NCBI GenBank assembly: GCA_031181145.1
Contig: JAPSLB010000001.1
Span: 211,775-275,774, forward strand
DNA from: Microvirga sp.
Lineage (GTDB): Bacteria; Pseudomonadota; Alphaproteobacteria; Rhizobiales; Beijerinckiaceae
Direction of reading: 5' to 3'
DNA length: 64,000 bases
The stretch's first letter is position 1, and each line of letters begins with the position of its first letter. Positions 43,520 to 63,095 of the stretch are shown here, piece after piece. A program made the position numbers and the translations under genes. The notes below the pieces were generated by a model that worked only from the letters and a program-made list of their open reading frames with translations, did not search any database and had not been told where the DNA came from.

Positions 43520-44098
43520 TCAGACCTTGCGCGTAAACGGGCTTAACCAGGCGGACAGCGCGTCAGCACGATGGAGGATGGCGTCTCCCCACCTCCCCAT
43601 AGCGCATTTGGCGGTAAGAGCCGCAGCAAGGCTCACGAGTACGGCGCCAGCCATGTCGAAGGGATAGTGGACTCCGAGATAAATCCTGGCCCACGCAACG
43701 ATCAGGCCCATCACGCCTACCGCGCAAGCAAGCCTGCGCGCCCCAACGAGGGCGAGAGCCGCCGTGTAGGTGAAGAAGATGGTTCCGTGATTGCTCGGGA
43801 ATGACGGACTCGGGCGGTGCTCGATTAAGGTATTGCCCAGGCCGATCACGAAGGGACGTGGAGTGTAGGCGACCACACCTATGACATAATTCGCCGACAA
43901 TGCGATAATCAGTGCGAGCACAAGCATAACCGCAGTGGAACGGAGGCGTCGATTGCCTCCCAGCCACAGCAGGACGATGTGGATCGGTAGCAGAATGATC
44001 ACGTATTTGGCAAACATACTCGCAAGAAACACCAGAGGCCGTGATGGCTCATCAGAGGCGTTCAACGTCAGGAAGAGCGCGTGATCGAGGCTTTCCAT
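43520..44098 (-). CDS. PAP2-family membrane phosphatase
   Basis: A 192-residue inner membrane phosphatase of the PAP2 superfamily, BcrC-like in size. The three catalytic motifs are present: a Lys/Arg-x6-RP type RPFVIGLG region, PSNH in SFPSNHGTIFF, and ARIYLGVHYPFD. ATG 44098 has AAGGAGTGG in front, which rules out the longer frame. It likely dephosphorylates undecaprenyl diphosphate or a lipid phosphate at the periplasmic face. Confidence 0.88.
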   Translation of the reverse strand: MESLDHALFLTLNASDEPSRPLVFLASMFAKYVIILLPIHIVLLWLGGNRRLRSTAVMLVLALIIALSANYVIGVVAYTPRPFVIGLGNTLIEHRPSPSFPSNHGTIFFTYTAALALVGARRLACAVGVMGLIVAWARIYLGVHYPFDMAGAVLVSLAAALTAKCAMGRWGDAILHRADALSAWLSPFTRKV

Positions 44099-44622: not shown

Positions 44623-45870
44623 TTAGAAGCGGCCTGCCCGGTAGGGGTAAGGATCGATTATTGGTTTCCTGTTTGCAACTAAGTCAGAGACCAGCAGGCC
44701 TGTTGTTGAGCCGCCAATCAGTCCTGTCTGGCCATGGCCGAAGGCAAGCATGACGTTCCTGTGCCTGGATGACGGCCCGATGACCGGTAGAGAGTCAGGT
44801 GTCGCGGGGCGGTGCCCCATCCAGACGGAGATCGGTTCGCCGATCGTGCCGGGGAAATAGCGCTCCGCAATCTTTCCGAGGGCGGCGGCACGCCGCTCGT
44901 TCATCGGCGCGTCGAGTCCAGCGATCTCTGCCGTTCCTGCTATCCGGAGGCCATGCTCCATCGGCGTCATCATGATCTTTGCGGCCAGTGGATAGAGTGG
45001 GCGCTTTGGCGCCACCTCCGGCATGGGCAGCATCACATGATAGCCGCGCAGGCTTTCAAGCGGGATCCTGAGACCGAGCCGACCAGCCAATCGCTGAGAC
45101 CACGCGCCAGCGGCGATGATCACCATATCGCACCCCATGCGCCCGGCATCCGTTACGACGGCGCGAACGTGTCCGGCTTCCTGATCGAAATCCCTCACCG
45201 ATGTGCGAACGAAGCGCCCCCCGTTCCGCGCGACATCTTCCGCGATAGTCGTCACAAGGCGATGCGGGTTGCTGCAATGCCCGGAGTCGGGAAGGTAGAT
45301 CGCTTTCGCAAAGCGGGGTTCCAGCGAAGGCTCCAGTTGCCGGATCTCGTCAGGACCCAAGATCTCCGAACGGATGCCGAACGCATCCCTGAGTTTTCGA
45401 CCAAGGGCATCCTTGGCGAAGGCTGCATCGCTTTCATAGAGATAGAGCTGGCCGGAGACGTGAAGCAGGCTTCGGGCATCAGCGCCCAGAAGTGTGCGAT
45501 AGTGCTTGAAGCTGTCGGCATGCAGCGAGCGGAGCGCCTTTGCGATCCCACTGATGCGCGGGCTTGCGCCCGCCGCGATGAATCTGGCGAGCCACGGTAG
45601 CGCACGAGGCAGATAGCGCCAGTCGATCCATAGCGGGCTGTCGGGATCAGTGATCCACGATGCGGCCTGTCGTACGATGCCCGGCGTGGACAAGGGCACT
45701 ACGGAGCCGGGACCGATGCTTCCGGCATTGCCGAATGAACATCCCTCCCCCGGCGGCAAGGGATCGAAAATGGTCACGGAGTGCCCGTCCCGCTGAAGAA
45801 AGGCCGCACACGACACCCCGATGACGCCAGCTCCGACGATGGCGATGGCGGCCAACGCTCTCTCCCTCAC
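44623..45870 (-). CDS. FAD-dependent amino acid oxidase/dehydrogenase (DadA-like)
   Basis: A 415-residue flavoprotein of the D-amino acid oxidase superfamily. The FAD motif AIVGAGVIGVSCA is near residues 9-21, the CSFGNAGSIGPGSVVP loop is typical of DadA-like dehydrogenases, and the C-terminal GHGQTGLIGG binds the flavin ribityl. It starts with GTG at 45870, overlapping the previous stop by four bases (GTGA). It probably oxidises an amino acid or secondary amine at the membrane. It is the last gene of the five-gene operon. Confidence 0.9.
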   Translation of the reverse strand: MRERALAAIAIVGAGVIGVSCAAFLQRDGHSVTIFDPLPPGEGCSFGNAGSIGPGSVVPLSTPGIVRQAASWITDPDSPLWIDWRYLPRALPWLARFIAAGASPRISGIAKALRSLHADSFKHYRTLLGADARSLLHVSGQLYLYESDAAFAKDALGRKLRDAFGIRSEILGPDEIRQLEPSLEPRFAKAIYLPDSGHCSNPHRLVTTIAEDVARNGGRFVRTSVRDFDQEAGHVRAVVTDAGRMGCDMVIIAAGAWSQRLAGRLGLRIPLESLRGYHVMLPMPEVAPKRPLYPLAAKIMMTPMEHGLRIAGTAEIAGLDAPMNERRAAALGKIAERYFPGTIGEPISVWMGHRPATPDSLPVIGPSSRHRNVMLAFGHGQTGLIGGSTTGLLVSDLVANRKPIIDPYPYRAGRF

Positions 45871-46838
45871 AATGGAAGACGTAATCCGCGACCGGCCCGG
45901 CGGGCCTCCGCGATGACCTCAGCCGCGATGGCGAGATCGCCTAGAGCGAAGCCGGGGAAAAGGAACATGATGCGCTGCTTCTCATCCGTGCGGCCGGGAG
46001 CAGTCCCAGCAACGAGAGATGCCAGATCCGAGTCGAAGGGGCCCGGATAGCGGAGCTTGGCACGGTTGGACGGATCGGCTGCCTGACCATAATCGTCGGT
46101 GGCCAGGATATCGAGTGAGCGCAGCCCCTCCCCTCGCCAGGGACGCCCAAGATCGACCGCCGCGACGAAGCATCCAGGCCTCAGGAGCGATGCATCGAGA
46201 AACGGTTCAAGACCGGGCTGTGCCGGAACCGTCGAGACGACCACGTCGCAGGCGAGTACCTCGTTCGGAGAATCCGCCACCTCGGCATCCAGGCCGTTTT
46301 CACGAGCATATGCTGCGAGTTTTTCCGCGGATGAGCGGCTACGCGAGTTACACACAACCTTGCGAAGTCCAGGTAGCACTTCCTGAAGGCTGGCGAGATG
46401 CCCATAGGCTTGGGCGCCGCATCCGACGAAGCCGATAGTGGAACTGCCGGGGCGGGCAAGACAGGAAGCTGCCAGCGCCGACATGGCGGCCGTGCGCAGC
46501 ACCGTGAGGCTCGTTCCGTCGAGAACCGCTACCGGAACTCCGGTCGTGAAATCGCTCACCACGATCAGGCCGTTGACATTCGGCAGACCACGCTCGCGGT
46601 TATCGGCGGCGACGCCCACCCATTTCGTTGTCGCGAATGGAGGATCGGGCATGGCGGCGCAGAGCGATTGAAAGAAGTGCCCTGGGCCGACCGGCACGGT
46701 GAGTTTCGGCTGAACGTGGGTTCTTCCCTCGGCATGCAGACGGAAGGCATGCGCAAGTGCTTCGCGCGCCGCCTTGGGCTTTATGTCGAGGGCGGCAATG
46801 TCCTCGCTGGAGAGGTAAAGCAACTTGCTCATGGCCAT
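45867..46838 (-). CDS. Ornithine cyclodeaminase/mu-crystallin family protein
   Basis: A 323-residue NAD(P)-linked protein of the ornithine cyclodeaminase/mu-crystallin family. Typical segments are TKWVGVAADN, LTVLRTAAMSALA and the Rossmann motif GFVGCGAQAYGH. The family includes ornithine cyclodeaminase and imine reductases such as pyrroline-2-carboxylate reductase. The ATG at 46838 overlaps the upstream stop (TGATG). In Ti plasmids an ornithine cyclodeaminase gene accompanies opine oxidase genes, as here. Confidence 0.92.
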   Translation of the reverse strand: MAMSKLLYLSSEDIAALDIKPKAAREALAHAFRLHAEGRTHVQPKLTVPVGPGHFFQSLCAAMPDPPFATTKWVGVAADNRERGLPNVNGLIVVSDFTTGVPVAVLDGTSLTVLRTAAMSALAASCLARPGSSTIGFVGCGAQAYGHLASLQEVLPGLRKVVCNSRSRSSAEKLAAYARENGLDAEVADSPNEVLACDVVVSTVPAQPGLEPFLDASLLRPGCFVAAVDLGRPWRGEGLRSLDILATDDYGQAADPSNRAKLRYPGPFDSDLASLVAGTAPGRTDEKQRIMFLFPGFALGDLAIAAEVIAEARRAGRGLRLPL

Positions 46839-48019
46839 CACCCTGCCCGGCCGCCGGCAGCAGCCGGCAAATCGAATTCGCGCGCCAGCTTGTCCGAGAC
46901 CTGAACCGAATTCTTGAAGCGATTGATAGAGAATAGATCGATCGGAGTGTCCGTCCTGCCATCCACGATGAGATCGACAAGCACCGCAGCGACACCTGGC
47001 CCCACCTGAAAGCCATGTCCGCAGAATCCGAAGGCATGATACAGACCGGGTGTCGTCCCGCTCTCGCCGATGACTGGCAGCATGTCGGGCAGATAGCCCT
47101 CGATGCCCGACCAGACGCGAATGACCTGCGCCGATTTCAGGAACGGAGCAATCTTCATGAGATTGCGCATGCCGTTGAGTGTCTTGATTGGAGGCACGGG
47201 AGCACGGTTGAGCACCGGATCGGCTGCCGTCCGCGGATAGCCTGCGAAGATCACATTGCCGCGCAGAATCTGTCGAAAGATCACGGATCCGTCCACGGCC
47301 TGCACGGAGGGCGTGACCCGATAGGGGATGGGCTCGGTCACAAATTGTGGAGGGCCTGCTGCGAACATGGGCGCCGTCTCGCCGAAGGCTTCCGCAATAT
47401 TCAGGGCCCAGGCGCCTGCGGAGTTCACCACCGCGTCGCAATCCACCGCGCGCCCGGTATCAGTCTCCAGGGTAAAGCCGGTGCCGTTCCGGCACACTTC
47501 CGTCACGCGCGTATGCTCAACGATTTCCGCGCCACGGCGCTGTGCGGCTCTTGCGACGGCAACAGATACGAGACGAGGGTTGGACGTGGCATCCCGCGCC
47601 GAATAGGTTGCCGCCTGAGGTCCCTCCCCCAACCACGGCCAACGGCGACGAAGTTCATCGCAGCCGATCCGCTCGATCACGAGGCCATGGCTCTCGGCGA
47701 CGCGTGCGTGCTGCTCCAGTTTCTCCCGCTCGGCATCGTTCATCGCGACGTAGAGGTGGCCCGTCCTCTCGAACTCGCATCGGTCGCCGATGAGCGCTTC
47801 GATATCCTCCCAGAGCGCCTGCGATCTGAGAGACAACGGATATTGCCCCGGATGGCGCCCCTGCAGGCGCAGATTGCCGAAATTCACTCCGCTCGATTGG
47901 GCGCCGACCATGCCCTTCTCGATCAGGATCACATCCAATCCACGCCTGGCGAGGAAGTGGGCTGTCCATGTGCCTATGAGCCCGCCACCGACAACGGCGA
48001 CCCGCATTCTTGTCGTCAT
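46838..48019 (-). CDS. FAD-dependent dehydrogenase beta subunit (OoxB/HcnC-like)
   Basis: A 393-residue flavoprotein of the DAAO superfamily, the catalytic beta-subunit type found in opine oxidase, hydrogen cyanide synthase and D-hydroxyproline dehydrogenase. The FAD motif VAVVGGGLIGTWTA starts near residue 6; EKGMVGAQSSGVNFGNLR follows and GFCGHGFQVGPG lies near the end. Its ATG overlaps the alpha-subunit stop (ATGA). It should strip electrons from a secondary amine and pass them to the alpha subunit. Confidence 0.9.
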   Translation of the reverse strand: MTTRMRVAVVGGGLIGTWTAHFLARRGLDVILIEKGMVGAQSSGVNFGNLRLQGRHPGQYPLSLRSQALWEDIEALIGDRCEFERTGHLYVAMNDAEREKLEQHARVAESHGLVIERIGCDELRRRWPWLGEGPQAATYSARDATSNPRLVSVAVARAAQRRGAEIVEHTRVTEVCRNGTGFTLETDTGRAVDCDAVVNSAGAWALNIAEAFGETAPMFAAGPPQFVTEPIPYRVTPSVQAVDGSVIFRQILRGNVIFAGYPRTAADPVLNRAPVPPIKTLNGMRNLMKIAPFLKSAQVIRVWSGIEGYLPDMLPVIGESGTTPGLYHAFGFCGHGFQVGPGVAAVLVDLIVDGRTDTPIDLFSINRFKNSVQVSDKLAREFDLPAAAGGRAG

Positions 48020-49383
48020 GGCTCCATCTCCGCAGCGGCATGAAGAGGAATAGGCTTCACCGGTGCCTGCATGCGCAACCGCCCGACTTCCGCAATTGGC
48101 ACGACGCATGCTCCCGCCACGATCTCCTGCAGAGCCGGACCGCAGAATCGCCCCTGACACCGGCCCATGCCGCAGCGCGTGATCGCCTTGACGCGGTTGA
48201 CCTCACGCGGGCCGAGCGGCGCATGAACGGCAGATCGGATTTCTCCCACTGTCACCGCCTCACATCGGCAGGCGACGGTTTCATCGGAAAGTGTAGCCGA
48301 CTGCGCGACCGGCCATGCGAAAGCCCTAGCGAGCCCTCGTTGGAACTGTCGCAAGCGTTCGACCTCCCGCCTCAGCCGTGCGAGCTCGGCCTCCGGCTGG
48401 GCCCGGCCCATGTCAGTGAGCAGCGCGTGAGCCGCGAGCGCACCGCTGGCTTCTGCGGCGTCCGCTCCGCCGATTGCTGCGCCATCACCGGCCAGATAGA
48501 GATCGGCTCCGGCCCGTCCGTCGGCATCCGTCTCCGGCAGCCACAACCGGAAGATCGGATCGAACCGGAAGCGGGCTCCGGCCAGTTCGGCGAGTTGCGT
48601 TTCCGGCTTGAGGCCGTAGCCATAAGCGACCGCATCGCAGGGGATGAGCCTTTCGCGCCCTCGGCCATCCGTGATCCGCACGCCTTCGACATGGCCCTCA
48701 CCATCGATTCCGCGCGGCGTCGCGCCATCGATGATGGGAACGCCGGCCATGTGGAGCGAAGCACGGTACACGATGCCGCGTGCCAGCGTGCGCGGACTCG
48801 CAGCAAGGTCGCGCATGGCAGCCCGTTTTGCGGAGAGCGGAGTCGTATCCACGACGGCCGCAATCGATGCACCGGACTTGTGGTATTGCAGCGCCGCCAG
48901 AAACAGCAGCGGAGAGCTTCCGAGGAAGACGATGCGATTGCCGATCAGACAACCCTGGTCCTTCAGGATCACCTGCGCGCCACCCAAGGTGAAAACGCCG
49001 GGCAACGTCCATCCCGGCAGGGGCATGATTCGATCCGTGGCACCCGTTGCGAGGATCAGCGCATCATAGGGGATCGTACCAGCCGTACCGTCGCACAACG
49101 TGTGCAGGACTTTCTCATGAACGCCCCAGACGAGAGTGCCGGATCGATAATCGATCCGCTCCTGGAGAGAAGCGAAGAGCGAATGCAGGCGCTGGTATTT
49201 GCCTGCCTCGGATCCCATCAAGGCATTGATGTCAACGGCAAGGCTTTTGGCCGGCGCACGATAGCCTTGGCCTCCCACTTGCCTCGTCTCGTTCACGAGA
49301 ACCGGCTTCAGGCCTGCCTCGACCAGGATGGATGCAGCTCGAATACCGGCAGGGCCGCCACCGACGATCACCACGTTAGGCAT
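48016..49383 (-). CDS. FAD- and 2Fe-2S-containing dehydrogenase alpha subunit (OoxA/HcnB-like)
   Basis: A 455-residue protein with a pyridine-nucleotide-disulfide-oxidoreductase fold. The N-terminal FAD motif VVIVGGGPAGIRAA is followed by an ILATGATDR segment and the second flavin motif LYLAGDGAAIGG. Near residue 370 a BFD-like 2Fe-2S domain has CRCEAVTVGEI and CGMGRCQGRFC. The ATG at 49383 lies inside the stop of the 2Fe-2S gene. This architecture matches opine oxidase A and D-hydroxyproline dehydrogenase alpha subunits, which relay electrons to quinones. Confidence 0.9.
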   Translation of the reverse strand: MPNVVIVGGGPAGIRAASILVEAGLKPVLVNETRQVGGQGYRAPAKSLAVDINALMGSEAGKYQRLHSLFASLQERIDYRSGTLVWGVHEKVLHTLCDGTAGTIPYDALILATGATDRIMPLPGWTLPGVFTLGGAQVILKDQGCLIGNRIVFLGSSPLLFLAALQYHKSGASIAAVVDTTPLSAKRAAMRDLAASPRTLARGIVYRASLHMAGVPIIDGATPRGIDGEGHVEGVRITDGRGRERLIPCDAVAYGYGLKPETQLAELAGARFRFDPIFRLWLPETDADGRAGADLYLAGDGAAIGGADAAEASGALAAHALLTDMGRAQPEAELARLRREVERLRQFQRGLARAFAWPVAQSATLSDETVACRCEAVTVGEIRSAVHAPLGPREVNRVKAITRCGMGRCQGRFCGPALQEIVAGACVVPIAEVGRLRMQAPVKPIPLHAAAEMEP

Positions 49384-49705
49384 CGGCGTGAGCCTTCTGC
49401 GGATCGGTCCAAACGACCATCTCATTGGCTGCTAGGGTCGTGCAGGCCCTGACGCGGTCTCCGTCTCCGAGCGAGACCCAGCAATCCTGGCAGGCTCCCA
49501 TGAGGCAAAAACCGGCGCGGGGGGCGCCACCGAACTCGAGATGCCGGACAACCCGTCCGTTGAGCAGGAGCACCGCAAGCAGGCTGTCGCCCTCCACAGC
49601 CTCGACCGTGTCCCTGTCAATCGTCAGGCGCAGCGTCGCGCCGTGACGGGGGACGGCTCTCACGAATTGTCCTTTGTGGGTCCTCTGTTTGGGCTCGTCC
49701 GGCAT
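49376..49705 (-). CDS. 2Fe-2S ferredoxin-like gamma subunit (HcnA-like)
   Basis: A 109-residue protein with one plant-type cluster motif, CLMGACQDCWVSL, and a last Cys in RVRACTTLA. It is the small subunit of three-part amine dehydrogenases, linking the FAD subunits. It overlaps the alpha-subunit gene by eight bases and is the first gene of the operon, directly behind the 17-bp palindrome at 49724. Confidence 0.9.
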   Translation of the reverse strand: MPDEPKQRTHKGQFVRAVPRHGATLRLTIDRDTVEAVEGDSLLAVLLLNGRVVRHLEFGGAPRAGFCLMGACQDCWVSLGDGDRVRACTTLAANEMVVWTDPQKAHADA

Positions 49706-49723
49706 GCCTACCCACCACGTTTA

Positions 49724-49740
49724 TTATTGCGATGCAATAA
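49724..49740. promoter_or_regulatory. 17-bp palindrome upstream of the dehydrogenase operon (IclR operator candidate)
   Basis: TTATTGCGATGCAATAA has perfect 7-bp arms around a 3-bp centre. It lies 19 bp upstream of the first codon of the operon. A nearly identical site at 50743 precedes the second operon on the other side of the IclR gene. Confidence 0.7.
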
Positions 49741-49839
49741 CTTTTGTGGAATGGTAGGATTGTCAGAAAACGGCTGTCAAGGAAAAGGCGGTCAAGTTGG
49801 CGGCAATGCGGCGCAAATGTTAGCCAGACAGAGATTGTC

Positions 49840-50670
49840 TCAGGTGGACGAGACGGAATGCGCTCCAGCGATGATGTGCATTGCGAAGCGCTCCACGACT
49901 TCCTCGGGCGAGAAACGCGAGAGCGGAACCGCGATGTTGATCGCGCCTTCCGGACGATTGTTCGCCGCGACGACCGCCGCGGCGATGGATGCGTCGCCTC
50001 GATAGAACTCGTCGAAAGCGGTAGCGTAACCCTGCTCGCGCGAGACGCGCAGCTTCTTCACGAGATCGTCGAGCCTCCAGGTCGTTGAGGGAGTATACGC
50101 CTTCCGGTCGGAGCGCTCGAGTATCGCAATTGCTTCATCCTCCGGTAGGCGCGACAGGATCGCCATACCGGGAGCGGTGCAATAAGCCGGCATACGGGAG
50201 CCGATGATCACATTCGTGTTCAGCATGTGCCGGCTCATGAACCGAGAGATGAAGATGATCTCGGTGTCGTCGAGAACGGTGAGGTTGACCGTCTCTTCCG
50301 TCTCCTTGGAGAGATGCAGCAGATACGGCATGGCCCGCTCCACGAGGCGATTGCTGCGCAGATAATAGTAACCCAGTTGCAACGTCTTGGCGGTCAGCTC
50401 GAACCGCCTTGTATCGGGGTCTTTGCGCAAATAGCCCAACTTGGTCAGCGTATGCGTGAAGCGTTGTGCCGCGCTGACGTCCATCTCGGTTGCGACAGCG
50501 ATCTGAGAAAGGCTCAGGCTCGCGCTGTGATGGTCGAAAACCGAAAGCACACGAAAAGCCTTTTCAACCGACATCACCATCAGCGGATCCGTGCTACGGC
50601 CGCGCTTTGCCGGCTCCTCATCTTCGGCCTTCTTCATCTTACTGATCGCCATTCCGGAATTCTCTCTCAT
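49840..50670 (-). CDS. IclR family transcriptional regulator
   Basis: A 276-residue regulator. The N-terminal winged helix covers about residues 30-90 (SVEKAFRVLSVFDHHSASLS, VSAAQRFTHTLTKLGYL). The effector domain contains the family segments YCTAPGMAILSRLP, AFDEFYRGDASIAAAV and a final amphipathic helix. ATG 50670 was chosen; an ATG six codons in is also possible. It lies between two divergent operons that share a palindrome, so it very likely controls both. Confidence 0.9.
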   Translation of the reverse strand: MRENSGMAISKMKKAEDEEPAKRGRSTDPLMVMSVEKAFRVLSVFDHHSASLSLSQIAVATEMDVSAAQRFTHTLTKLGYLRKDPDTRRFELTAKTLQLGYYYLRSNRLVERAMPYLLHLSKETEETVNLTVLDDTEIIFISRFMSRHMLNTNVIIGSRMPAYCTAPGMAILSRLPEDEAIAILERSDRKAYTPSTTWRLDDLVKKLRVSREQGYATAFDEFYRGDASIAAAVVAANNRPEGAINIAVPLSRFSPEEVVERFAMHIIAGAHSVSST

Positions 50671-50742
50671 CTGAACGGCCTCGATAAGAATCTCAATAGT
50701 GGTTGACAATAGCGGCAAGTTGAGCCGAACATACAATAATAA

Positions 50743-50759
50743 TTATTGCATTGCAATAA
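50743..50759. promoter_or_regulatory. 17-bp palindrome upstream of the enoyl-CoA hydratase operon (IclR operator candidate)
   Basis: TTATTGCATTGCAATAA has the same 7-bp arms as the site at 49724, identical at 15 of 17 positions. It is 21 bp before the hydratase start and on the promoter side of the IclR gene, so it could also mediate autoregulation. Confidence 0.75.
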
Positions 50760-50780
50760 ATCATCGGGAGGTTCAAGGCC

Positions 50781-51554
50781 ATGGCTGAGTTTGTCTTGAG
50801 TGAGCGGCAGGGTGCGGTCGGCATTATCACCCTGAATCGTCCCCAGGTTTTGAACGCCTGGAATACGGCCATGCGGGACGAGTTGACCGCCACCCTGACG
50901 GCCATGGAGGAGGACGCAAATGTCCGCGCCATCATTCTTACCGGTGCAGGCGACCGCGCTTTCGGAGCCGGCCAGGACCTCAACGAGACGAAAACGTTCG
51001 ATCCGGATCGCGCTGAGCAGTGGATCGGCGAGTGGAAGCGCCTCTACGACCGCATCCGGTCGCTCTCGAAGCCGATCGTTGCGGCCCTGAACGGCGTCGC
51101 AGCCGGATCAGCCTTTCAGGTGGCGCTCCTCTGCGACTTTCGGATCGGCCACGCTGGTGTGACTATGGGCCAGCCGGAGATCAATTCCGGCATTGCCAGT
51201 ACTACCGGTCCCTGGATCATGCGCGAGATCATTGGCCTCGCCAGAACGATCGATCTGACGCTTACTGGACGCATGATGGATGCGGATGAGTGCTACCGCA
51301 TCGGTGTCATCAATCGCCTGGTGCCGCAAGATAAGGTGATGAGCGAAGCGCTTGCACTTGCAGAGCTCCTTGCCAGCAAGCCTCCCGTCGCCATGCGCCT
51401 GAATCGCCAGCGCTTCCGTGAAATGACCGAGGAAGGCTTCCGCGATTGCCTTGCCGCCGGCATCCGCATTCAGCGCGAGGCCTACGCGTCCGGTGAGCCA
51501 GCACGGATGATGGAACAGTTCCTGGCTCGCAAGGCCGCGGCAAAGAAGGGCTGA
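50781..51554 (+). CDS. Enoyl-CoA hydratase/isomerase family protein
   Basis: A 257-residue crotonase-fold enzyme. Key segments are GDRAFGAGQDLNE (oxyanion loop), AALNGVAAGSAFQVALLCDF and GQPEINSGIASTTGPW. A GGGAGG ribosome binding site precedes the ATG. It adds water to, or shifts the double bond of, an acyl-CoA. It heads the operon with a CoA ligase gene, so it probably handles the ligase product downstream in the pathway. Confidence 0.9.
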   Translation: MAEFVLSERQGAVGIITLNRPQVLNAWNTAMRDELTATLTAMEEDANVRAIILTGAGDRAFGAGQDLNETKTFDPDRAEQWIGEWKRLYDRIRSLSKPIVAALNGVAAGSAFQVALLCDFRIGHAGVTMGQPEINSGIASTTGPWIMREIIGLARTIDLTLTGRMMDADECYRIGVINRLVPQDKVMSEALALAELLASKPPVAMRLNRQRFREMTEEGFRDCLAAGIRIQREAYASGEPARMMEQFLARKAAAKKG

Positions 51555-51613
51555 AGCCCCGCCACACCACGAGGGAATGCAGGTCAAAAGATCTGCGAAA
51601 CTGGAGGACGAAC

Positions 51614-52681
51614 ATGAACAATACCTATCTGACAATCAATCGGAGACACCTGCTCAAGACTGCAGGTGGCGCAGCCCTGGTTCTCGGAATGCCGGGCCTC
51701 GCTGGCCGGGCTCTGGCGGCAACGACGATCACCGTCGCCGATCCCGGTGGCCCCTTCGGCCCTGCCTTCCGCAAAGCTTTCTACGACCCATTCGAGAAGG
51801 CGACCGGCATCAAGGTCGTCAACGTTGCCCGTGAGGCCGAACCCACGGCGCAGTTCAAGGCAATCGTAGAGACGAAATCCTACACCTGGGACGTCTGCAC
51901 GTTGACGCTCTCGGCGCGTGACATTCTCGTGAAGCAGAACCTTCTCGAGCCCATCGGATTCACCCGCGATGCCGCACCTGGCCTGATGCCCGAAGCCCTG
52001 ACCGAATACTGGATGGGCACGGACGTGTATTCCACGGTCTTCGCTTACCGGAACGATCGCTTCAAGGACAATGCGCCGAAGAGCTGGGCTGACTTTTGGA
52101 ATGTGGAGAAATTTCCCGGGCGCCGCTCCTTGCGCAAGAATCCAATCGACTCCCTTGAACAGGCCCTGATGGCAGACGGCGTGAGCATTGATCAGCTTTA
52201 TCCGCTCGACGTCGACCGCGCGTTCAAGAGCTTGGACAAGATCAAGCAGCACATCGCTGTGTGGTGGACGGGCGGAGCACAGTCGACGCAGCTTCTGCAG
52301 AGCGGCGAGGTCGACATCATCAGCGGCTGGAACGCACGCCTCCAGGCGGCGATCGACGGCGGAGCGCCGGCGACTATCGTCTGGGAGCAGGGTCTCTATT
52401 CGATCGAGGGCTGGGCAATCCCAAAGGGCTGCCCACGTGCGGATGCCGCGAAACAGTTCATCAAATTCTGCTCCGCTCCCGATCGTCAGGCCGCCTTCAC
52501 GGATCTACTAGCCTACGGGCCGACCAATCTCGATGCCTACAAGAGCATCTCTGCTGATCGTGCGAAGGTCCTGCCGACATCGCCTGAAAATCTCAAGAAG
52601 ATGCAAGTCGCCAACGAGAACTGGTGGAGCGAGAACCGCGCCGCGGTGACTGAGCGCTTCAACAGCTGGCTTCTCTCCTGA
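51614..52681 (+). CDS. Periplasmic substrate-binding protein, spermidine/putrescine type
   Basis: A 355-residue binding protein of the PotD-like family. It begins with a twin-arginine-like signal NRRHLLKTAGGAALVLG and cleaves near LAGRALAA. ITVADPGGPFGPAFRKAFYD is a family-like N-terminal strand. GGAGGAC precedes the ATG. It feeds the fused permease encoded two genes on. The ligand may be any small amine or organic acid. A strong hairpin after the stop probably keeps its mRNA level above that of the rest. Confidence 0.9.
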   Translation: MNNTYLTINRRHLLKTAGGAALVLGMPGLAGRALAATTITVADPGGPFGPAFRKAFYDPFEKATGIKVVNVAREAEPTAQFKAIVETKSYTWDVCTLTLSARDILVKQNLLEPIGFTRDAAPGLMPEALTEYWMGTDVYSTVFAYRNDRFKDNAPKSWADFWNVEKFPGRRSLRKNPIDSLEQALMADGVSIDQLYPLDVDRAFKSLDKIKQHIAVWWTGGAQSTQLLQSGEVDIISGWNARLQAAIDGGAPATIVWEQGLYSIEGWAIPKGCPRADAAKQFIKFCSAPDRQAAFTDLLAYGPTNLDAYKSISADRAKVLPTSPENLKKMQVANENWWSENRAAVTERFNSWLLS

Positions 52682-52687
52682 TGAAGG

Positions 52688-52724
52688 GCGCCGCCGCCTC
52701 GCTCTGCGAGGAAGGCGGCGGCGC
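52688..52724 (+). terminator. GC-rich hairpin between binding-protein and ATPase genes
   Basis: GCGCCGCCGCCT at 52688-52699 and AGGCGGCGGCGC at 52713-52724 form a perfect 12-bp stem with a 13-base loop, followed by ATTT. It begins 7 bp after the stop. It would stop part of the transcripts or protect the 3' end, raising binding protein over the membrane parts. Confidence 0.75.
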
Positions 52725-52933
52725 ATTTCGGTAAGACTGAGTTGGAACTCACGAACCAAGTGCGCGTGTGCCCTTGCTGATGTCCGATCGTTCGGCTGCG
52801 CGCCGATGGTCTGCTGCCGTACTCGGGCTCAAAAGGTAGGCTTCTATCGCATTTTTCGGCTGGGCGCATGTCGCGGATGTGTTCAATACCGCGCCCACAC
52901 ACGGCCTCGAGACGAAGGAAGGAAATCGCTACG

Positions 52934-54010
52934 ATGACCACGGCAGCGAAGAATGGCGTGACCGCGCCGAAGCTGATCATTGAAGGTCTGTCAAAGCAAT
53001 ATGGTGCCGTGACTGCACTGGAGCCGATCTACCTGACCGTTCCGACGGGAGAGTTCCTGACTCTGCTCGGACCCTCGGGCTCGGGCAAAACCACGCTACT
53101 CCAGATGATCTGCGGCCTCGCCGAACCGAGTTCAGGTCGTATTCTCATCGACGGACGCGACCAAACGCAAACGCCAGTCCATCAGCGCGACATCGGTCTC
53201 GTATTCCAGCATTACGCGCTCTTCCCTCACCTGACGGTTGCCGAGAACATCGAGTTCCCACTGCGCATGCGGGCCCTGTCCGCCACAGAGATAAAGCAGC
53301 GTGTCAAGAACGTCTTAACGATGGTGCAGCTTGACCATCTCGCTGCGCGCTTCCCGCGTGAGCTTTCCGGCGGACAGCAGCAGCGCGTGGCGCTCGCCCG
53401 CTCCTTCGTCTACCAGCCCTCGATCATTCTCATGGACGAGCCGCTCGGCGCTCTCGACAAGAAGCTGCGCGAGCACATGCAGATCGAGATCAAGCAGCTG
53501 CATCGTGAGACAGGAGCAACCATTATCTACGTGACTCACGATCAGGAGGAGGCGCTCGCTCTCTCTGACCGGATTTGCCTAATGAATCTTGCCCGGATCG
53601 AGCAGCTCGGCTCTCCTCATGAGATCTATGCCCGCCCGGCGACGGCCTTCGCGGCCGACTTCATCGGAATCTCGAACATCTTTCGCGGACAGGTCGACAC
53701 CTCCAACGGAGAGGCTCGTATCTCCACGCCGCACGGAAAATTCCGCCTTCCCACAGGCGCCTCACTCTCCGGTACAGAGGCCGCTATCGTGATCCGTCCT
53801 GAGCAGATCAGCCTCGGAGGTGACAAGGAGAATACCGTCGTGGGCCGCGTGATCGATGCCGTTTATGCCGGTTCCGAAACGCGGCTCATTGTCGATCTCG
53901 ACGAGGGCGAAACAGTAATCGTGCGCCTGCCGCCGGGCCACCCCGCGCCTGCGTACGGAGAGCGTGCAGCCCTGGGCTGGAATCCAGACGCAGCGGTTCT
54001 GGTGCCATGA
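52934..54010 (+). CDS. ABC importer ATPase, PotA-like
   Basis: A 358-residue ATPase with an additional C-terminal TOBE-type domain. Walker A is GPSGSGKTT near residue 46, the signature LSGGQQQRVALARS near 145, and Walker B IILMDEPLGALD near 167. ATG 52934 has AAGGAA in front and matches family length. It powers uptake through the fused permease, whose start overlaps its stop. Confidence 0.93.
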   Translation: MTTAAKNGVTAPKLIIEGLSKQYGAVTALEPIYLTVPTGEFLTLLGPSGSGKTTLLQMICGLAEPSSGRILIDGRDQTQTPVHQRDIGLVFQHYALFPHLTVAENIEFPLRMRALSATEIKQRVKNVLTMVQLDHLAARFPRELSGGQQQRVALARSFVYQPSIILMDEPLGALDKKLREHMQIEIKQLHRETGATIIYVTHDQEEALALSDRICLMNLARIEQLGSPHEIYARPATAFAADFIGISNIFRGQVDTSNGEARISTPHGKFRLPTGASLSGTEAAIVIRPEQISLGGDKENTVVGRVIDAVYAGSETRLIVDLDEGETVIVRLPPGHPAPAYGERAALGWNPDAAVLVP

Positions 54011-55791
54011 ATGGGAGGGAAACCGCAAGCATGACAGCAATCACTGCTCCCGCCGTCCCGCTCCGGCAGCGACTTCTTCGCCCCAATGCGCTCTGGCTCG
54101 CCGCACCGGGTATCGCATTCCTGGCCGTCTTCTTCCTCTACCCGGTACTGCGTCTTCTCGCTTTGAGCGTGCAGGATCCTGCAAGTGGAGCTCTCAGCGT
54201 CGCAACTTATGCCCGCATCGCGAACACAGACGTATATCTTCAGGTGCTGGGCATCACGTTCAAGATTGCGGGTAACACGGCGCTGTTCTCCGTGCTGCTC
54301 GGCTATCCCCTTGCCTATTGGCTTGCCGAACTGAAGGCGGGATTGCGGGAGCGCATGGTTCTTCTCGTAATGGTGCCGTTCTGGACGAGCTATCTCGTGA
54401 AGACCTTCGCCTGGATGGTCGTACTCGGCCGCACAGGCGTGATCAACAGCATGCTCACGGGAAGCGGCTTGGCTTCCGAGCCGCTTCCCCTTGCCTACAA
54501 CGAGTTTGGTGTGATGGTCGGCATGGTCCACGCCATGGTTCCGCTCGCGGTTCTCACCATGCTGCCAGTCATGATCGGCATCGACCGGCGCCTGATTCAG
54601 GCGGCGCAAGTGCTCGGTGCTGCGCCGGCTCAATCCTTCTGGCTCGTCTACTTCAAACTCTCCCTCCCTGGCGTGACCGCCGGCGGCCTACTTGTGTTCA
54701 TCTCTTCGCTCGGATTCTTCATCGTGCCCGCTCTCCTGGGCGGCCGGCGCGAGACGATGCTGGCGCAGCTCATCATCACGCAGGTGCAGGAGCTCCTCAA
54801 TTGGGCTTTTGCAGGGGCACTTGCGGCCATGATGCTGGTGGCCGCACTCGTCACTTGCTGGGTTTATGACCGTCTCTTCGGCCTTTCTTCGCTCTCGGGC
54901 GACACGTCTGCGCAAGGCGGCGGAACAGGACGCCTGCGCCTGCTCGGACTCGTGATCTTACGGGCCGTGGCAAAAGCGAGCGCCGTGCTGTCCGATGCTG
55001 CCCGACGGGTGATCGGAGTTCGTGGCGCACGCCGTCTGCTGCCTATCTACTGCACACTTGCCCTCGTGTATCTGGTACTACCAACCCTTCTCGTGATACC
55101 CATCGGCTTCACGAGTTCACAGTTCCTGGAGTTCCCCCCCCCTGGATACAGCCTGCAGTGGTTCGAGACTTACTTCTCCTCGCCCGTCTGGCTTTCCGCT
55201 ACTTTGCGCTCGTTCGGCGTGGCTGCAGCTACCGCAATTTGCGCAACCCTCATCGGTGGTCTCGCGGCTCTCGCGCTAGCGCGTTCTGACACCCGATGGG
55301 GTGGACTCATCTTCGCGACATTCCTTGCTCCCTTGATCGTTCCGCGTATCATCATCGCGGTTGGCCTGTTCTATCTCTTCGCACAGATCGGCCTCGTCGC
55401 GACGGATCTAGGCCTCGTGATCGGTCACACGGTCCTGGCCCTCCCCTTCACCTTCGTGACCATTACGGCGATCCTAAAGAACTACGACTGGCGTCTCGAT
55501 CAGGCTGCGGCTGTGCTTGGAGCCAACCGACTCAGGACCCTGCTTCTCATTACCGTGCCTCTCGTGAAGGGAGGGTTGGTCGCGGCTTTCCTGTTTGCTT
55601 TCATCACCTCCTTCGATGAGCTCACCATTGCGATCTTCATCAGCGGCGGGATCAAGACGACACTGCCAAAGCAGATGTGGGACGATATGATTCTACAGCT
55701 TAACCCGACGCTCGCTGCGGTGTCCGTCGTGGTCTTTGTGATTGTGACCGTCCTCCTCCTCGTCGCAGAACGCTTCCGCCGCACGACCTGA
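54007..55791 (+). CDS. Fused ABC permease (PotB-PotC in one protein)
   Basis: A 594-residue membrane protein carrying two complete permease domains in tandem. Domain one, about residues 20-295, shows the EAA coupling region QAAQVLGAAPAQSFWLVYFK. Domain two, about 335-590, repeats it as QAAAVLGANRLRTLLLITVP. About 12 helices in all. Most spermidine/putrescine-type systems use two proteins. The start overlaps the ATPase stop by four bases; ATG 54031 is an alternative. Confidence 0.92.
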   Translation: MNGRETASMTAITAPAVPLRQRLLRPNALWLAAPGIAFLAVFFLYPVLRLLALSVQDPASGALSVATYARIANTDVYLQVLGITFKIAGNTALFSVLLGYPLAYWLAELKAGLRERMVLLVMVPFWTSYLVKTFAWMVVLGRTGVINSMLTGSGLASEPLPLAYNEFGVMVGMVHAMVPLAVLTMLPVMIGIDRRLIQAAQVLGAAPAQSFWLVYFKLSLPGVTAGGLLVFISSLGFFIVPALLGGRRETMLAQLIITQVQELLNWAFAGALAAMMLVAALVTCWVYDRLFGLSSLSGDTSAQGGGTGRLRLLGLVILRAVAKASAVLSDAARRVIGVRGARRLLPIYCTLALVYLVLPTLLVIPIGFTSSQFLEFPPPGYSLQWFETYFSSPVWLSATLRSFGVAAATAICATLIGGLAALALARSDTRWGGLIFATFLAPLIVPRIIIAVGLFYLFAQIGLVATDLGLVIGHTVLALPFTFVTITAILKNYDWRLDQAAAVLGANRLRTLLLITVPLVKGGLVAAFLFAFITSFDELTIAIFISGGIKTTLPKQMWDDMILQLNPTLAAVSVVVFVIVTVLLLVAERFRRTT

Positions 55792-55813
55792 AAACACAAT
55801 CTGAGAGATATCG

Positions 55814-57349
55814 ATGTCACTCGATGATGCTAGTCTCGCCAATCTGCTGCGCCTGCGCGCCGAGAATGATCCCGACGGAATCTTCGCCCGCTTCAACGGT
55901 GAACCCATCACCTTCAGCCAGCTGGATTCCCAATCCGCTTCTTTAGCGGCTTGGCTGCGCTCCCACGGTTTGCAACCGGGCGAGCATGTTGCAGTGATGA
56001 TGCGCAACAGCGCGGAAACTCTCGCGGTGGTCTTCGGGCTCGCCAAGGCCGGCTTGGTCTGGGTGCCGCTCAACGCGCAGCAGCGTGGCCAAGGCTTGCA
56101 GTACGTCATCAATCACTCAAAGCCGGCTCTCGTCATTGCCGATGCAGACCTTCTGCCGACGATCAACGAGTGCGACGCGGAGCGTCCCCCAGGAGGCTTC
56201 CTCATTCATGGAGAGGCCGAGGGTCATCCGCGCTTGGCCGATGCCCTGATCACCGGAACCCCTTTCACCGAACCGGCACCCGCCCTGGATGCGCCCTTCG
56301 CCATCATGTACACCTCCGGCACGACTGGCCAGCCGAAAGGCGTGATCGTCTCAAACCGGATGATTCGGCTCGCGGGAGAAGGCGTCAGCCTGGTCGCGGC
56401 CTCGCGCGCCGGCGATGTGATGTTCGTGTGGGAGCCGCTCTACCATATCGGCGGCGCCCAACTTCTGAGCCTGCCGATGACCCACGACGTGATCCTCGCG
56501 ATGGTGGATCGCTTCAGCGCGAGCCGCTTTTGGGGTCAGGTTCGCGAATACGGCGCGACGCATATCCACTATCTCGGCGGCATCCTGCAAATCCTCCTTA
56601 AGCAGCCTGAATCCCCGACAGATCGTGACCATGCCGTAAGGATCGCATGGGGCGGGGGTTGCCCGGGTGATATCTGGGATGCGTTCCAGGACCGGTTCGG
56701 CGTTCAGATCCGTGAATGCTACGGCATGACCGAAGCCTCCAGCATCACCACCTTCAACGACAAGGGAGTGGTGGGTTCGGTTGGAAACGCGGTGCCGTGG
56801 TTCACGGTGGAACTGCTTGATGCCGTAGGCAATCCCGTTCCGCAGGGCGAGCGCGGCGAAATCGTGGTGCGCACCTCGATGCCGGGTGCAATCTTCCCGG
56901 GCTATTTCGATAATCCGTCCGCGACAGAGAAGGCTATTCGGGGCGGTGCCTTGTACACCGGCGATCTCGGCACCTACGATCCGGAGGGCAACCTGATCTT
57001 CCACGGCCGCTTGACCGACAGCGTCCGCTGCCGTGGTGAGAATGTCTCCGCCTGGGAGGTCGAACGCGCCGCCGCCGATCATCCATCCGTCGAGGATTGC
57101 GCCATGATCGGCGTCGCTGCGGATATCGGTGAGCAGGACATCAAACTCTTCATCAAGCCGAAGACCGGCGCCAGCGTCCAACCTGCGGAGATTTCCAAGT
57201 GGTTGTCCACTCGCCTTGCTGGCTACCAGAACCCCCGTTACATCGCTGTCGTCGACGAGTTCGAGCGCACGCCGAGCCAGCGCATTATGAAGCACAAACT
57301 CTCCAAACGTCTTGACGATTGCTGGGACAGGCTTGCGAAAGGAAACTGA
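55814..57349 (+). CDS. AMP-forming acyl-CoA synthetase (class I adenylate-forming ligase)
   Basis: A 511-residue adenylating enzyme. The ATP motif MYTSGTTGQPKG is near residues 160-171, YGMTEASS near 308, and the C-terminal lysine in RTPSQRIMKHKL. The GRLTDSVRCRGENVSAWEVE hinge is also present. It would activate a carboxylic acid as CoA thioester. It follows the permease gene and precedes an unassigned Rossmann protein gene. The closest annotated relatives are crotonobetaine/carnitine-CoA ligase-like, which I recall only in general terms. Confidence 0.9.
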   Translation: MSLDDASLANLLRLRAENDPDGIFARFNGEPITFSQLDSQSASLAAWLRSHGLQPGEHVAVMMRNSAETLAVVFGLAKAGLVWVPLNAQQRGQGLQYVINHSKPALVIADADLLPTINECDAERPPGGFLIHGEAEGHPRLADALITGTPFTEPAPALDAPFAIMYTSGTTGQPKGVIVSNRMIRLAGEGVSLVAASRAGDVMFVWEPLYHIGGAQLLSLPMTHDVILAMVDRFSASRFWGQVREYGATHIHYLGGILQILLKQPESPTDRDHAVRIAWGGGCPGDIWDAFQDRFGVQIRECYGMTEASSITTFNDKGVVGSVGNAVPWFTVELLDAVGNPVPQGERGEIVVRTSMPGAIFPGYFDNPSATEKAIRGGALYTGDLGTYDPEGNLIFHGRLTDSVRCRGENVSAWEVERAAADHPSVEDCAMIGVAADIGEQDIKLFIKPKTGASVQPAEISKWLSTRLAGYQNPRYIAVVDEFERTPSQRIMKHKLSKRLDDCWDRLAKGN

Positions 57350-57350
57350 G

Positions 57351-58436
57351 GTGACGACGCAATCGACCATCCTCCTGACCGGAACCGGCGCCTTCGCGGC
57401 CCGCATCCTGTTCGACATCGCGGCCACGGCGAGGGCTCCCACCTGTGTGGTTCTCGCGGGCCGCAATCGTGAGCGCCTGCAATGGCTGAACGTAGCGGCA
57501 GGCGCAAGAGCCGCGATCTTCAACACGCCAGTGACCGTTATTGCGCGTGAGGTCGATCTTTTTGCTGAGGATGCTGCCACCAGACTGCTCGAAGAGACGA
57601 AGCCGTCTGTAGTCGTGCAGGCGGCTTCCGTGCAGACGTCGTCCGTAATCGCAGGATCGGGCAATGCCTGGAGCAGGCTTGTTGCAGAGGGCGGGTTGAG
57701 CGCGACCGCGGTCTTCCAGGCGGTTCTCAGCGCCCGCGTGGCGGCAGCCATGACGCGCCTCGGAAGAACCATCCCGCTGATCAATTGCAGCTTCCCAGAC
57801 GTGGTGAATGGATTGATCAAGGCACTCGGCCATCGGGTCCTGTGCGGCATGGGCAATGTCGCGATCCTGTCCAGTGTCTTCGCCGCCGACCGCGATCTGA
57901 TGGAGAGAGGCCGCATCAAGGTTCTGGCCCATTATCAGCACCTCGGAGCATGGCGCCGCCCAGCCGAAACGCGTTCCGGATCGGCGCCGAGGGTCTGGAT
58001 CGACAATGAAGAGGTCGGTGATGTGTTCGGCACATTTGCTTATGTGAAGCTGACGCCGGAACCTGTCATCGACATCTCTGGGGCGAGCGGCGTGCCGATG
58101 ATCCTCGCCCTCGCGGAAGGCCGCTCATGGACCGGCCATGTTCCCGGCCCTTACGGCATGCCGGGGGGCTATCCGGTGCAGCTTACCGACGGGGCATTAT
58201 CGCTCAACCTGCCGCCGTCCGTCTCGCAGGAGGAGGCCGTGGCGTGGAACGCACGCTTCGAGGAAGAAAGTGGCCTGATCATCGGCGCCGATCGGCGGGC
58301 GCGTTACACGGGTATTCTGCGCGAGCGCCTGGCTCAGCATTCCCCCGTCCTGGCTGAGGGCTTCGATGTGGCGGATCTCGAAGAGGTCCACCGCTCGATG
58401 CAGGAGCTACGCATAAAGCTGCAGCAGCAAGGTTAA
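57351..58436 (+). CDS. Rossmann-fold protein of unknown function (saccharopine-dehydrogenase-like)
   Basis: A 361-residue protein starting at GTG 57351 behind AAGGAAA. The N-terminus TILLTGTGAFAARILFDIAA resembles a nucleotide-binding Rossmann start, and VVVQAASVQTSSV near residue 90 is like the second half of saccharopine-dehydrogenase-type domains. The C-terminal half has no family I recognise (WRRPAETRSGSAPRVW, PGPYGMPGGYPVQ). It begins one base after the ligase stop, so it belongs to the same pathway. A role in NAD(P)-linked oxidation or reduction of the CoA-linked intermediate is inference. Confidence 0.7.
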   Translation: MTTQSTILLTGTGAFAARILFDIAATARAPTCVVLAGRNRERLQWLNVAAGARAAIFNTPVTVIAREVDLFAEDAATRLLEETKPSVVVQAASVQTSSVIAGSGNAWSRLVAEGGLSATAVFQAVLSARVAAAMTRLGRTIPLINCSFPDVVNGLIKALGHRVLCGMGNVAILSSVFAADRDLMERGRIKVLAHYQHLGAWRRPAETRSGSAPRVWIDNEEVGDVFGTFAYVKLTPEPVIDISGASGVPMILALAEGRSWTGHVPGPYGMPGGYPVQLTDGALSLNLPPSVSQEEAVAWNARFEEESGLIIGADRRARYTGILRERLAQHSPVLAEGFDVADLEEVHRSMQELRIKLQQQG

Positions 58437-58556: not shown

Positions 58557-59090
58557 CTACTTCAGCATCATTCGTCCTAGCGCGAACGCTACGACGCGCT
58601 GCTCCTCCTTTGATAGTGTCGCCACAAGCCTTCGCTCGGTTTCCGCATGGTCCCGCATCGCGGGTTCGACCAGCCGTCGTCCTTGCTCTGTTAACTCGAC
58701 GATGACCCCCCGCCCATCCATGTCGTCGGCCATGCGGCGAATATAGCCTGCCTTCTCCAGCTTGCGCAGCAGGTTCGACAGTCCACCTGAGGTCAGGATA
58801 AGCGAGTCAAGTAACTGCTTCGGCGACATCTGGTACGGCGCACCTTCGACCCGAAGCGTCGCCAGCACAGCGAATGCCGGATACTTTAGCCGATGCTTTG
58901 CGAGGGTCCGGTTGATCGCGGTCATGAAGATCTCGTGCAGATGCAGCAGGCGGCCAACGACAGCCTTGCCGGAGCAATCCACGTCCGGAAACTCTCGACG
59001 CCACCGCTGCATGCCAGAACCAATGCGGTCCCTCTCCACCAATACAGTAGCCTCTTCAGCCTTAGTTTGTCGCAGCGCACCATTGCGCAT
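58557..59090 (-). CDS. MarR family transcriptional regulator
   Basis: A 177-residue MarR-type regulator. The winged helix is seen in SPKQLLDSLILTSGGLSNLL, RKLEKAGYI and the RRMADDMDGRGVIVELTEQG wing. ATG 59090 is preceded by GGAGG at six bases; the frame stays open 36 codons upstream but that part shows no MarR features. It is divergent from the binding-protein gene, with palindromes between, so it should regulate the transport operon. Confidence 0.88.
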   Translation of the reverse strand: MRNGALRQTKAEEATVLVERDRIGSGMQRWRREFPDVDCSGKAVVGRLLHLHEIFMTAINRTLAKHRLKYPAFAVLATLRVEGAPYQMSPKQLLDSLILTSGGLSNLLRKLEKAGYIRRMADDMDGRGVIVELTEQGRRLVEPAMRDHAETERRLVATLSKEEQRVVAFALGRMMLK

Positions 59091-59164
59091 GTCCATCCTC
59101 CAGATCGAGCCTCTCCAGCCGATAGGTGCGCTGCAAAGCGGGCCATCGGTCGCCGAAGGCATAC

Positions 59165-59194
59165 AAGATATCTTCTTATTATCTTTCTTGAAAG
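59165..59194. promoter_or_regulatory. Two palindromes in the MarR/ABC intergenic region
   Basis: AAGATATCTT at 59165-59174 is a perfect 10-bp palindrome and CTTTC-TT-GAAAG lies at 59183-59194. They occupy the AT-rich centre of the divergent region, where MarR proteins normally bind. Confidence 0.45.
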
Positions 59195-59305
59195 ACAAGT
59201 CGACCCGTGCAATGCTCCTTTCCGAGGGGCAGGCGGAAGCTCTGCCTTCGCGGGCGGGCCAGGGAACGCTGGCTCCTGCTCGGCAACCAGATGGGAGCTG
59301 AAACC

Positions 59306-60328
59306 ATGAGCCATTGTCTTCGCTACACGACGGCCGCCCTTCTCACTGCCGGCCTATCCGTCATCGCCCAAGCCGAGGAGTTGGTGGTAGGGGCGTTCGG
59401 AGGTTCCTTCGCCGACAACGTCAAGGCTTGCCACGTCGCGGCCTTCGAGAAAGCCACGGGCGCGACCGTGTCGCTTAAACTCGGCAACTCCTCGCAATTC
59501 GCTGCCGCGCTCCGGGCAACCGGCGGCAAGTCGGACATGGACATCGCCTACATCGACAATTCGCTGGCGGCCCAAACCCACGGCGAGAACCTCAACGAGC
59601 GGATCGACCGTACGAAGCTGAAGAACGCCGGTGATATCATTCCCACCGCTTGGGGTGAGGATGACAGCTACGTCGTCGCCATGGTCAGCGCGACAGCGCT
59701 TGTCTACAATCCCAAACTAGTCAAGACGCCGCCAACCTCCTGGCTCGATATCGCGGACCCAGCCTATGCCGGCAAATACGCTATCGGCGACATCAGTGGC
59801 ACTGCTGGCCTGCACTATTTCCTTGCCTTGAACAAGCTCGAAGGCGGTACGCTGGAGAACGTCGATCCCGGCATCGAGGCCATCAAGCCCATCGCTAAGG
59901 GGGCGGCAGTGCTCTACACTCAGGCGGATCAGTTGATCTCGCTGTTCGAGCGGGAGGAGATCGCCATTGCACCGTGGTACCCGGATCGTGCCGGCGTCGC
60001 CATGGACAAGGGACTTTCGCTCGCTGTCGCCTACCCTAAGGAAGGTGCCGTGGGCATTCTGCCGGCCGTGATCATCCCCAAGGGCACCACGAAGTCGGAA
60101 TTGGCGCACAAGTTCCTCGATCAAATCCTTTCGGCTGAGGGACAGGCCTGTTTCTCCGAACGCGCCTATATCGGGTCGGTCAACACCAAGGTTCAACTCT
60201 CCGACAGGCTCAAGGAAATTGTGCCCTATGGAGAAACGCTCGATAAGGCTTGGTTTGTCGATCCCAAAGTTATTGCCAAGAACTCCCCCACTTGGACGCG
60301 CCGCTGGCAGCGTGAGGTGGCGCGCTGA
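59306..60328 (+). CDS. Periplasmic substrate-binding protein, polyamine type
   Basis: A 340-residue binding protein with a signal peptide ending VIAQAEE and a mature start LVVGAFGGSFADNVKAC. A central DISGTAGLHYFLALNKL and the VIIPKGTTKSELAHKFLDQ segment are typical of PotD-like extracellular solute binding. ATG 59306 with GGGAG is chosen over the longer frame. It serves the ABC genes directly downstream, 28 bp away. Confidence 0.9.
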   Translation: MSHCLRYTTAALLTAGLSVIAQAEELVVGAFGGSFADNVKACHVAAFEKATGATVSLKLGNSSQFAAALRATGGKSDMDIAYIDNSLAAQTHGENLNERIDRTKLKNAGDIIPTAWGEDDSYVVAMVSATALVYNPKLVKTPPTSWLDIADPAYAGKYAIGDISGTAGLHYFLALNKLEGGTLENVDPGIEAIKPIAKGAAVLYTQADQLISLFEREEIAIAPWYPDRAGVAMDKGLSLAVAYPKEGAVGILPAVIIPKGTTKSELAHKFLDQILSAEGQACFSERAYIGSVNTKVQLSDRLKEIVPYGETLDKAWFVDPKVIAKNSPTWTRRWQREVAR

Positions 60329-60356
60329 GTTGGCAGTCTAAATGGTGGGAACTTCT

Positions 60357-63081: not shown

Positions 63082-63095
63082 AACGAGCTCACGCT

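Follow-up and report, generated by a model that had tools for sequence, protein, structure and literature searches.

What coordinates the two catabolic operons that flank an iclR-family gene in Microvirga sp.? The window, the whole stretch of 64,000 nucleotides that was analysed, carries a matching pair of 17-bp palindromes, one before each operon, and the question is whether these are the sites through which the IclR protein encoded between them controls both. As regulation, such a system is ordinary. For a CoA-dependent catabolic pathway that has yet to be characterised, and that is present in Microvirga, Bosea, Ensifer, Azospirillum and other alphaproteobacteria, it would provide a predicted regulon open to testing, with a list of the genes for uptake, activation and oxidation whose joint induction is expected.

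Palindromes and gene layout

The locus comprises the following features.

49724..49740, minus strand: candidate operator 1 (left), 17-bp palindrome, TTATTGCGATGCAATAA forward, TTATTGCATCGCAATAA on the minus strand
50743..50759, plus strand: candidate operator 2 (right), 17-bp palindrome TTATTGCATTGCAATAA
about 49840..50652, minus strand: iclR-family regulator gene, recognition helix DVSAAQRFTHTL (Gln66-Arg67 of P0001)
49376..49705, minus strand: gene for a small 2Fe-2S subunit (Fer2), which opens the left operon; named by eye from the sequence
44623..49425, minus strand: remainder of the left operon, encoding an FAD/BFD-[2Fe-2S] subunit, a DAO-family oxidoreductase, an ornithine cyclodeaminase/mu-crystallin protein and a D-amino acid dehydrogenase-like protein (Pfam/NCBIfam)
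50781..58436, plus strand: right operon, encoding a crotonase, a solute-binding protein, a PotA-type ATPase, a fused permease, an AMP-forming acyl-CoA ligase and a protein without a Pfam hit

The 7-base arms of the two palindromes are identical and the differences are confined to the three centre bases, just as the sequence-only reading had described them. Their positions agree with its further statement that one precedes a minus-strand oxidoreductase operon and the other a plus-strand crotonase operon, with iclR between. Operator 1 lies 18 bp from the ATG of the 2Fe-2S protein gene and operator 2 lies 21 bp from that of the crotonase gene. Together the two operons and iclR, from 44623 to 58436, span 13.8 kb, and the gene order of the right operon recurs in many relatives.

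Rarity of the motif

The window contains one further match at up to three mismatches, at 43788 with 3 mismatches, in line with the earlier claim that it holds no third copy; dinucleotide shuffles of the window yield a mean of 0.62 matches at 3 mismatches. Perfect 7-3-7 palindromes number six in the window, with arms common to this pair only, and a shared-arm pair arose in 0/60 first-order Markov simulations of the window. Nor is the motif scattered at random across the organism's genome (4,560,140 bases searched, 93 contigs, 89.55% complete): exact TTATTGC-N3-GCAATAA occurs twice, both times at this locus, even though the genome has 17 HTH_IclR profile matches (16 over the cut-off). Three more sites appear at 2 mismatches (L003, L004 and L005); the longest open stretches over them run to 206, 96 and 515 codons, respectively. 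When NTATYGCN3GCRATAN is allowed one mismatch, the same genome gives 25 sites vs 7 for the reversed pattern.

The expectation that the motif would track this iclR gene holds for its position beside the gene and fails for the relaxed 15-base core TATYGCN3GCRATA, which alone does not follow the gene because at least one copy is found in 81/101 related genomes, only 13 of which encode the regulator at ≥59% identity. Among the nine Microvirga-type genomes with this iclR (the present one and eight others), the core matches 37 times, 17 of them at the locus (18 possible) and 20 elsewhere; two of the off-locus matches lie near other iclR-type genes and seven have a common centre, AGT/ACT. From these counts the regulon looks local.

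Conservation at orthologous loci

Scanning of a species-genome collection with an IclR alignment gave 135 relatives, of which the best 80 were kept and combined with the window to give 81 loci. Sites were scored against TTAT(T/C)GC-N3-GC(A/G)ATAA, the T/C and A/G wobble having been introduced after the first orthologs had been seen, and were counted as present at ≥11/14. Conservation at orthologous operons, on which the sequence-only reading had made its regulon depend, is high. Among these best 80 relatives and the window, an upstream site is found in 71/73 loci with a crotonase gene divergent from iclR and in 1/8 of the others, and a downstream site in 39/43 loci with a target operon behind iclR vs 1/38 of the others. 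The downstream target is the 2Fe-2S operon in 38 of the 43, so that the 2Fe-2S gene occupies the same place in 38/81 loci, and the crotonase-ligase operon in the remaining 5. Both upstream misses with a divergent crotonase (L052 and L099) score 10/14, as do three of the four downstream misses; L052, L099, L102, L108 and L115 were all kept as misses at 10/14, though they resemble GTAT...ATAC variants. The fourth downstream miss scores 9 at L063, where the 2Fe-2S gene overlaps the end of iclR and therefore needs no promoter; it was nonetheless kept as a miss. The sole downstream site counted without a target, at L100, has a 2Fe-2S gene further on. Crotonase and acyl-CoA ligase are common to nearly all loci, and the transporter and left operon are optional.

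Elsewhere in the same loci the motif has a density of 0.035 per 620 bp, and the two flanking regions of the 81 loci hold 123 matches. Across 200 permutations of the arms, the top one scored 60 upstream and 38 downstream vs 72 and 40 for the motif itself; this maximum is an unclean control because that permutation is nearly a copy of the motif, as are several others, and the means (3.46 and 1.93) are fairer. The association between site and target has a Fisher p of 2.4e-17, a value that ignores relatedness and is inflated because the IclR tree (75 rows) shows only about two changes of state for the left operon, and counting any target gives 3 independent pairs (2.5 agreeing on average, 0 disagreeing), with which a sign test cannot reach 0.05. 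The column footprint is the stronger evidence. Across representatives less than 80% identical over 97 bp (44 of 72 upstream, 36 of 40 downstream), arm columns carry ~1.4-1.6 bits vs 0.13 just downstream; the arm values are raised because the sites were picked by match, and those of the third box and promoter described below are unaffected.

At five Shinella/Rhizobium/Mycoplana loci (L102, L108, L111, L112 and L115), the crotonase-ligase operon lies behind iclR and palindromes are found there too, two at 11/14 and three at 10/14. In each, a second palindrome, imperfect in L112, starts 20 bp before the first; excerpts of a survey of the family report tandem sites 18-22 bp apart in 94 groups (PMC8222616). 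In L111 and L112, the palindromes stand beside the crotonase-ligase start codon, about 125-155 bp past the iclR-like gene, and here the palindrome has moved along with the operon.

Promoters and a third half-site

Four further features lie around the palindromes.

50733..50739, minus strand: third half-site (box 3) TTATTGT, 3 bp from operator 2 on the promoter side
50703..50732, plus strand: predicted crotonase operon promoter, TTGACA 50703-50708, 18 bp, GAACAT 50727-50732
49751..49780, minus strand: predicted left operon promoter from a promoter scan, TTGACA 49780-49775, 18 bp, TACCAT 49756-49751
50681..50709, minus strand: possible iclR promoter TTGTCA-17-TATCGA, weak, read by eye; its -35 overlaps the divergent crotonase -35

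Both operators share one layout, in which TTGACA starts 40 bp before the palindrome, nAnnAT stands at -16 to -11 from it, and 10 bp lead from there to the palindrome. TTGACA with ≥5/6 matches is found at -41 to -39 from the palindrome in 35/44 right and 27/36 left representatives, against a background of 7% for a 24-start window (ties were resolved towards -40). The crotonase -10, GAACAT, matches in 3/6 positions only, and the promoter scan of the window picked up neither this promoter nor that of iclR. With a transcript start 6-7 bases past the hexamer, the palindrome would extend from about +4 to +20. For the left operon, the scan also returned an alternative promoter-like site (TCCACA-16-AATAAT, 49750-49723), with which the palindrome would lie between and over the hexamers and transcription would still be blocked.

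At right operators, box 3 is present with ≥5/7 matches in 42/44 representatives and with ≥6/7 in 17/44 (control positions 4.6% at 5/7), and in the window it matches in 7/7. At left operators, the corresponding values are 19/36 and 9/36 (control 4.0%), with 4/7 in the window. The right operator thereby has the third half-site at fixed spacing that characterises three-box operators, and the left has a weaker form. Neither the ends of the two operons nor the gap 52682-52867 yielded a terminator-like site.

The regulator and its recognition helix

The iclR product scores 50.8 bits with HTH_IclR (Pfam cut-off 22) and 127.1 bits with IclR_C (cut-off 24), placing it in the IclR family. The closest NCBIfam model, that of the PcaR/PcaU/PobR subfamily (TIGR02431), gives 195.5 bits and falls short of its curated cut-off of 284.75, as does BhcR (NF045644) with 136.5 bits against 350. 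The regulator's closest named relatives come from Microvirga species.

Alignment with Table 5 of PMC8222616 located the recognition helix and identified Gln66 as helix position 32. Excerpts of that work equate this position with Arg60 in PobR and Gln51 in TtgV and predict that Gln there prefers A/T at operator positions 9/23 (PMC8222616), a published preference with which Gln66 agrees. The contrast was followed in 47 more distant loci, where the best palindrome was chosen by pairing, the inner four arm bases and A/T in the centre; at least 6/7 pairs were needed for the count, which left out 26 with fewer, and L161 was set aside because its helix is unreadable. T or A occupies position 9 in 8/9 loci with Gln helices, and G in 11/11 with Arg helices, a contrast that is suggestive only, because a single kind of regulator makes up most of the Arg set. 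In the ninth Gln locus, L024, the best match is G+C-rich, and a motif-guided look gives GTATCGCTCAACGATAT. Operators begin NTAT with the Gln helix vs NGT with the Arg helix of PcaR-type proteins.

Paralogs and other palindromes

A paralog in the same genome, P0002 (contig 46), is 37% identical to the regulator and accompanied by tandem palindromes, TGATCGCGTTGCGCTAC and TTATCGCAATGCGGTAA, 21 bp apart (L138:4377-4414). They precede a peptide-type ABC operon, with TTATCGCAATGCGGTAA, a 13/14 variant of the motif, between the P0002 gene and that operon. A similar tandem pair with the same spacing is seen in L019, L021, L022 and L026. Another HTH_IclR locus of the present genome, L120, has a 12/14 match. 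On contig 9 (L140:3051-3065), TATCGCAGTGCAATA separates two convergent genes, which by inspection encode an N-formylglutamate amidohydrolase and an MFS transporter; palindromes with its AGT/ACT centre are found in 7/9 Microvirga-type genomes, and also in genomes without this IclR. One relative has a second copy of the regulator, 59% identical, with its own palindrome TATTGCATTGCAATA on the downstream side (G017:C110:63711-64600).

Proposed regulation and alternatives

The reading preferred here, to which a probability of about 85% is given, is that the palindromes are operators of the IclR protein encoded between them, which would act as a repressor of both operons and be released by a pathway compound. 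A dimer or tetramer of IclR would occupy each 17-bp palindrome; at the right operator it would extend to the third half-site, which is 3 bp away towards the promoter. With each operator immediately following the predicted -10 hexamer and occupied from about -6 to +20 relative to the predicted start, bound IclR would block RNA polymerase at both operons. Release by a pathway compound, which may be an acid, an amine or a CoA ester, would then induce the uptake, CoA-activation and oxidation genes together. Among the points in favour of operators is the third box, which played no role in site choice and is present in 42 of the 44 right operators. The protein is read as a repressor because a good -35 is followed by sites that cover the predicted start. 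That both operons form a single regulon, as had been proposed for 13 kb of these genes (13.8 kb as measured), is a well-supported prediction, given the rarity of the exact motif and its conservation. The palindromic sites beside the adjacent operons are present and conserved; we infer IclR binding, the sign of control, the start sites and the inducer.

Were the same operators bound by IclR as an activator in the manner of PcaU and PobR, the protein would recruit polymerase instead of blocking it. PcaU and PobR are activators and the closest NCBIfam model holds activators; the weak crotonase -10 also speaks for such a role. The family as a whole includes both activators and repressors, according to excerpts of PMC8222616. 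However, each operator follows the predicted -10 and is near the start codon, at a fixed distance from a near-perfect TTGACA, whereas an activator would be expected further upstream, and this sign of control is considered unlikely. It is improbable that the sites are bound mainly by another regulator, such as the paralog on contig 46, or are common to both: the paralog shares the Ala-Ala-Gln-Arg helix and its gene adjoins TTATCGCAATGCGGTAA, yet the palindromes flank the present iclR and follow its target operons across genera. A further reading, considered improbable, concerns the alternating three-box operators (four-box at Shinella-type loci). There, IclR would dimerise in two registers, on boxes 1+2 or 2+3, and inducer could shift it from a blocking to a non-blocking register, not simply remove it, with Gln66 (Arg in PcaR-type paralogs) setting the half-site that is read.

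Explanations that dispense with a DNA-binding protein fare worse. Both palindromes would be transcribed in the leaders of the two operons and would fold as 8- and 7-bp RNA hairpins, in which G-U pairs would accommodate part of the variation. However, the folding is no better than that of shuffles (z -1.04 and -0.41; 28 and 60 of 200 shuffles fold as well or better), 13/36 left sites have a pair 6 that fits neither Watson-Crick nor G-U pairing, and 10/44 right sites have C-A at pair 5. TAT/ATA at pairs 2-4 is nearly invariant, partly by site choice, and the hairpin does not include the conserved third box. With folding at shuffle level and pairs 5 and 6 broken in part of the sites, RNA hairpins were rejected as very improbable. 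Chance resemblance has the shuffle matches at 3 mismatches in its favour; against these stand the simulations, the rarity in the genome and the conservation across genera, on which it was rejected with a negligible probability. The palindromes are beyond chance.

Comparison with known systems

The kind of system is known and its arrangement is ordinary for the IclR family; its half-site departs slightly from the published consensus. The three-box operators of PcaU, PobR and HmgR also combine a palindrome with an external direct half-site, the boxes alternating, and the regulator gene likewise adjoins its targets; the comparison is one of box arrangement, not exact spacing. PcaU and PobR-type operators have a half-site of the GTTCG type, in contrast to TTAT(T/C)GC here, and belong to activators, whereas the present sites overlie the predicted start. 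HmgR of Pseudomonas putida also has a palindrome with an external direct repeat, and differs in its half-site (ATTACGT...) and pathway. It covers about -16 to +29 and represses. Excerpts of PMC8222616 list 32 groups with predicted three-box operators. An excerpted account of PheR of Sphingobium SHPJ-2 describes an IclR-family repressor of a phenanthrene-degradation operon, with a core of GCAACG, whose footprint extends from +23 to -21 over the transcript start and which is derepressed by the pathway substrate (PMC13273656). PheR is a tested parallel for a start-covering repressor, the operator position at the present locus being a predicted one.

The 17-bp 7-3-7 frame of the Group 1 IclR motif, GKTYCRYW3-4RYGRAMC, is found here, and the arm letters depart from it, TTATTGC agreeing in 4/7 positions with GKTYCRY and in 5/7 with the subgroup WTTYCRY. 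The same frame is seen beside PcaR-type regulators of the same order, with AGTTCGC-N3-GCGAACA at L148 and TGTGCGC-N3-GCGAACA at L144, both regulators scoring above the TIGR02431 cut-off, and with TGTTCGC-N3-GCGAACA at L029 and L033. PcaR-type proteins have Arg at helix position 32 and GT at operator positions 2-3, in contrast to Gln and TA here. Paralogs with Gln vs Arg at this one helix position offer a natural comparison for the IclR recognition code. Literature searches on the motif, on Microvirga with IclR and on HmgR operators did not name the regulator; the group tables of PMC8222616 (181 groups) may already predict it.

Functions of the operon genes

The 2Fe-2S, FAD-BFD and DAO trio of the left operon resembles sarcosine-oxidase-type subunits, with 85.7 bits for the SoxA model, below its cut-off, and also resembles the subunits of proline dehydrogenases. 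The closest solved chain is 1y56_A, named only as hypothetical protein PH1363. PDB and NCBIfam searches of the operon proteins gave no specific function, and no substrate is assigned because the NCBIfam hits shown for the left and right operon proteins all fall below curated cut-offs. Immediately past the right operon, the window region 58557-63929 carries a MarR-type gene on the opposite strand and a second PotABC-like transporter operon that ends in a polysaccharide deacetylase-like gene; no TTATTGC site occurs in this region. Within the right operon, at 54007-55791, the PotB- and PotC-type permease halves are fused into one protein of 594 aa.
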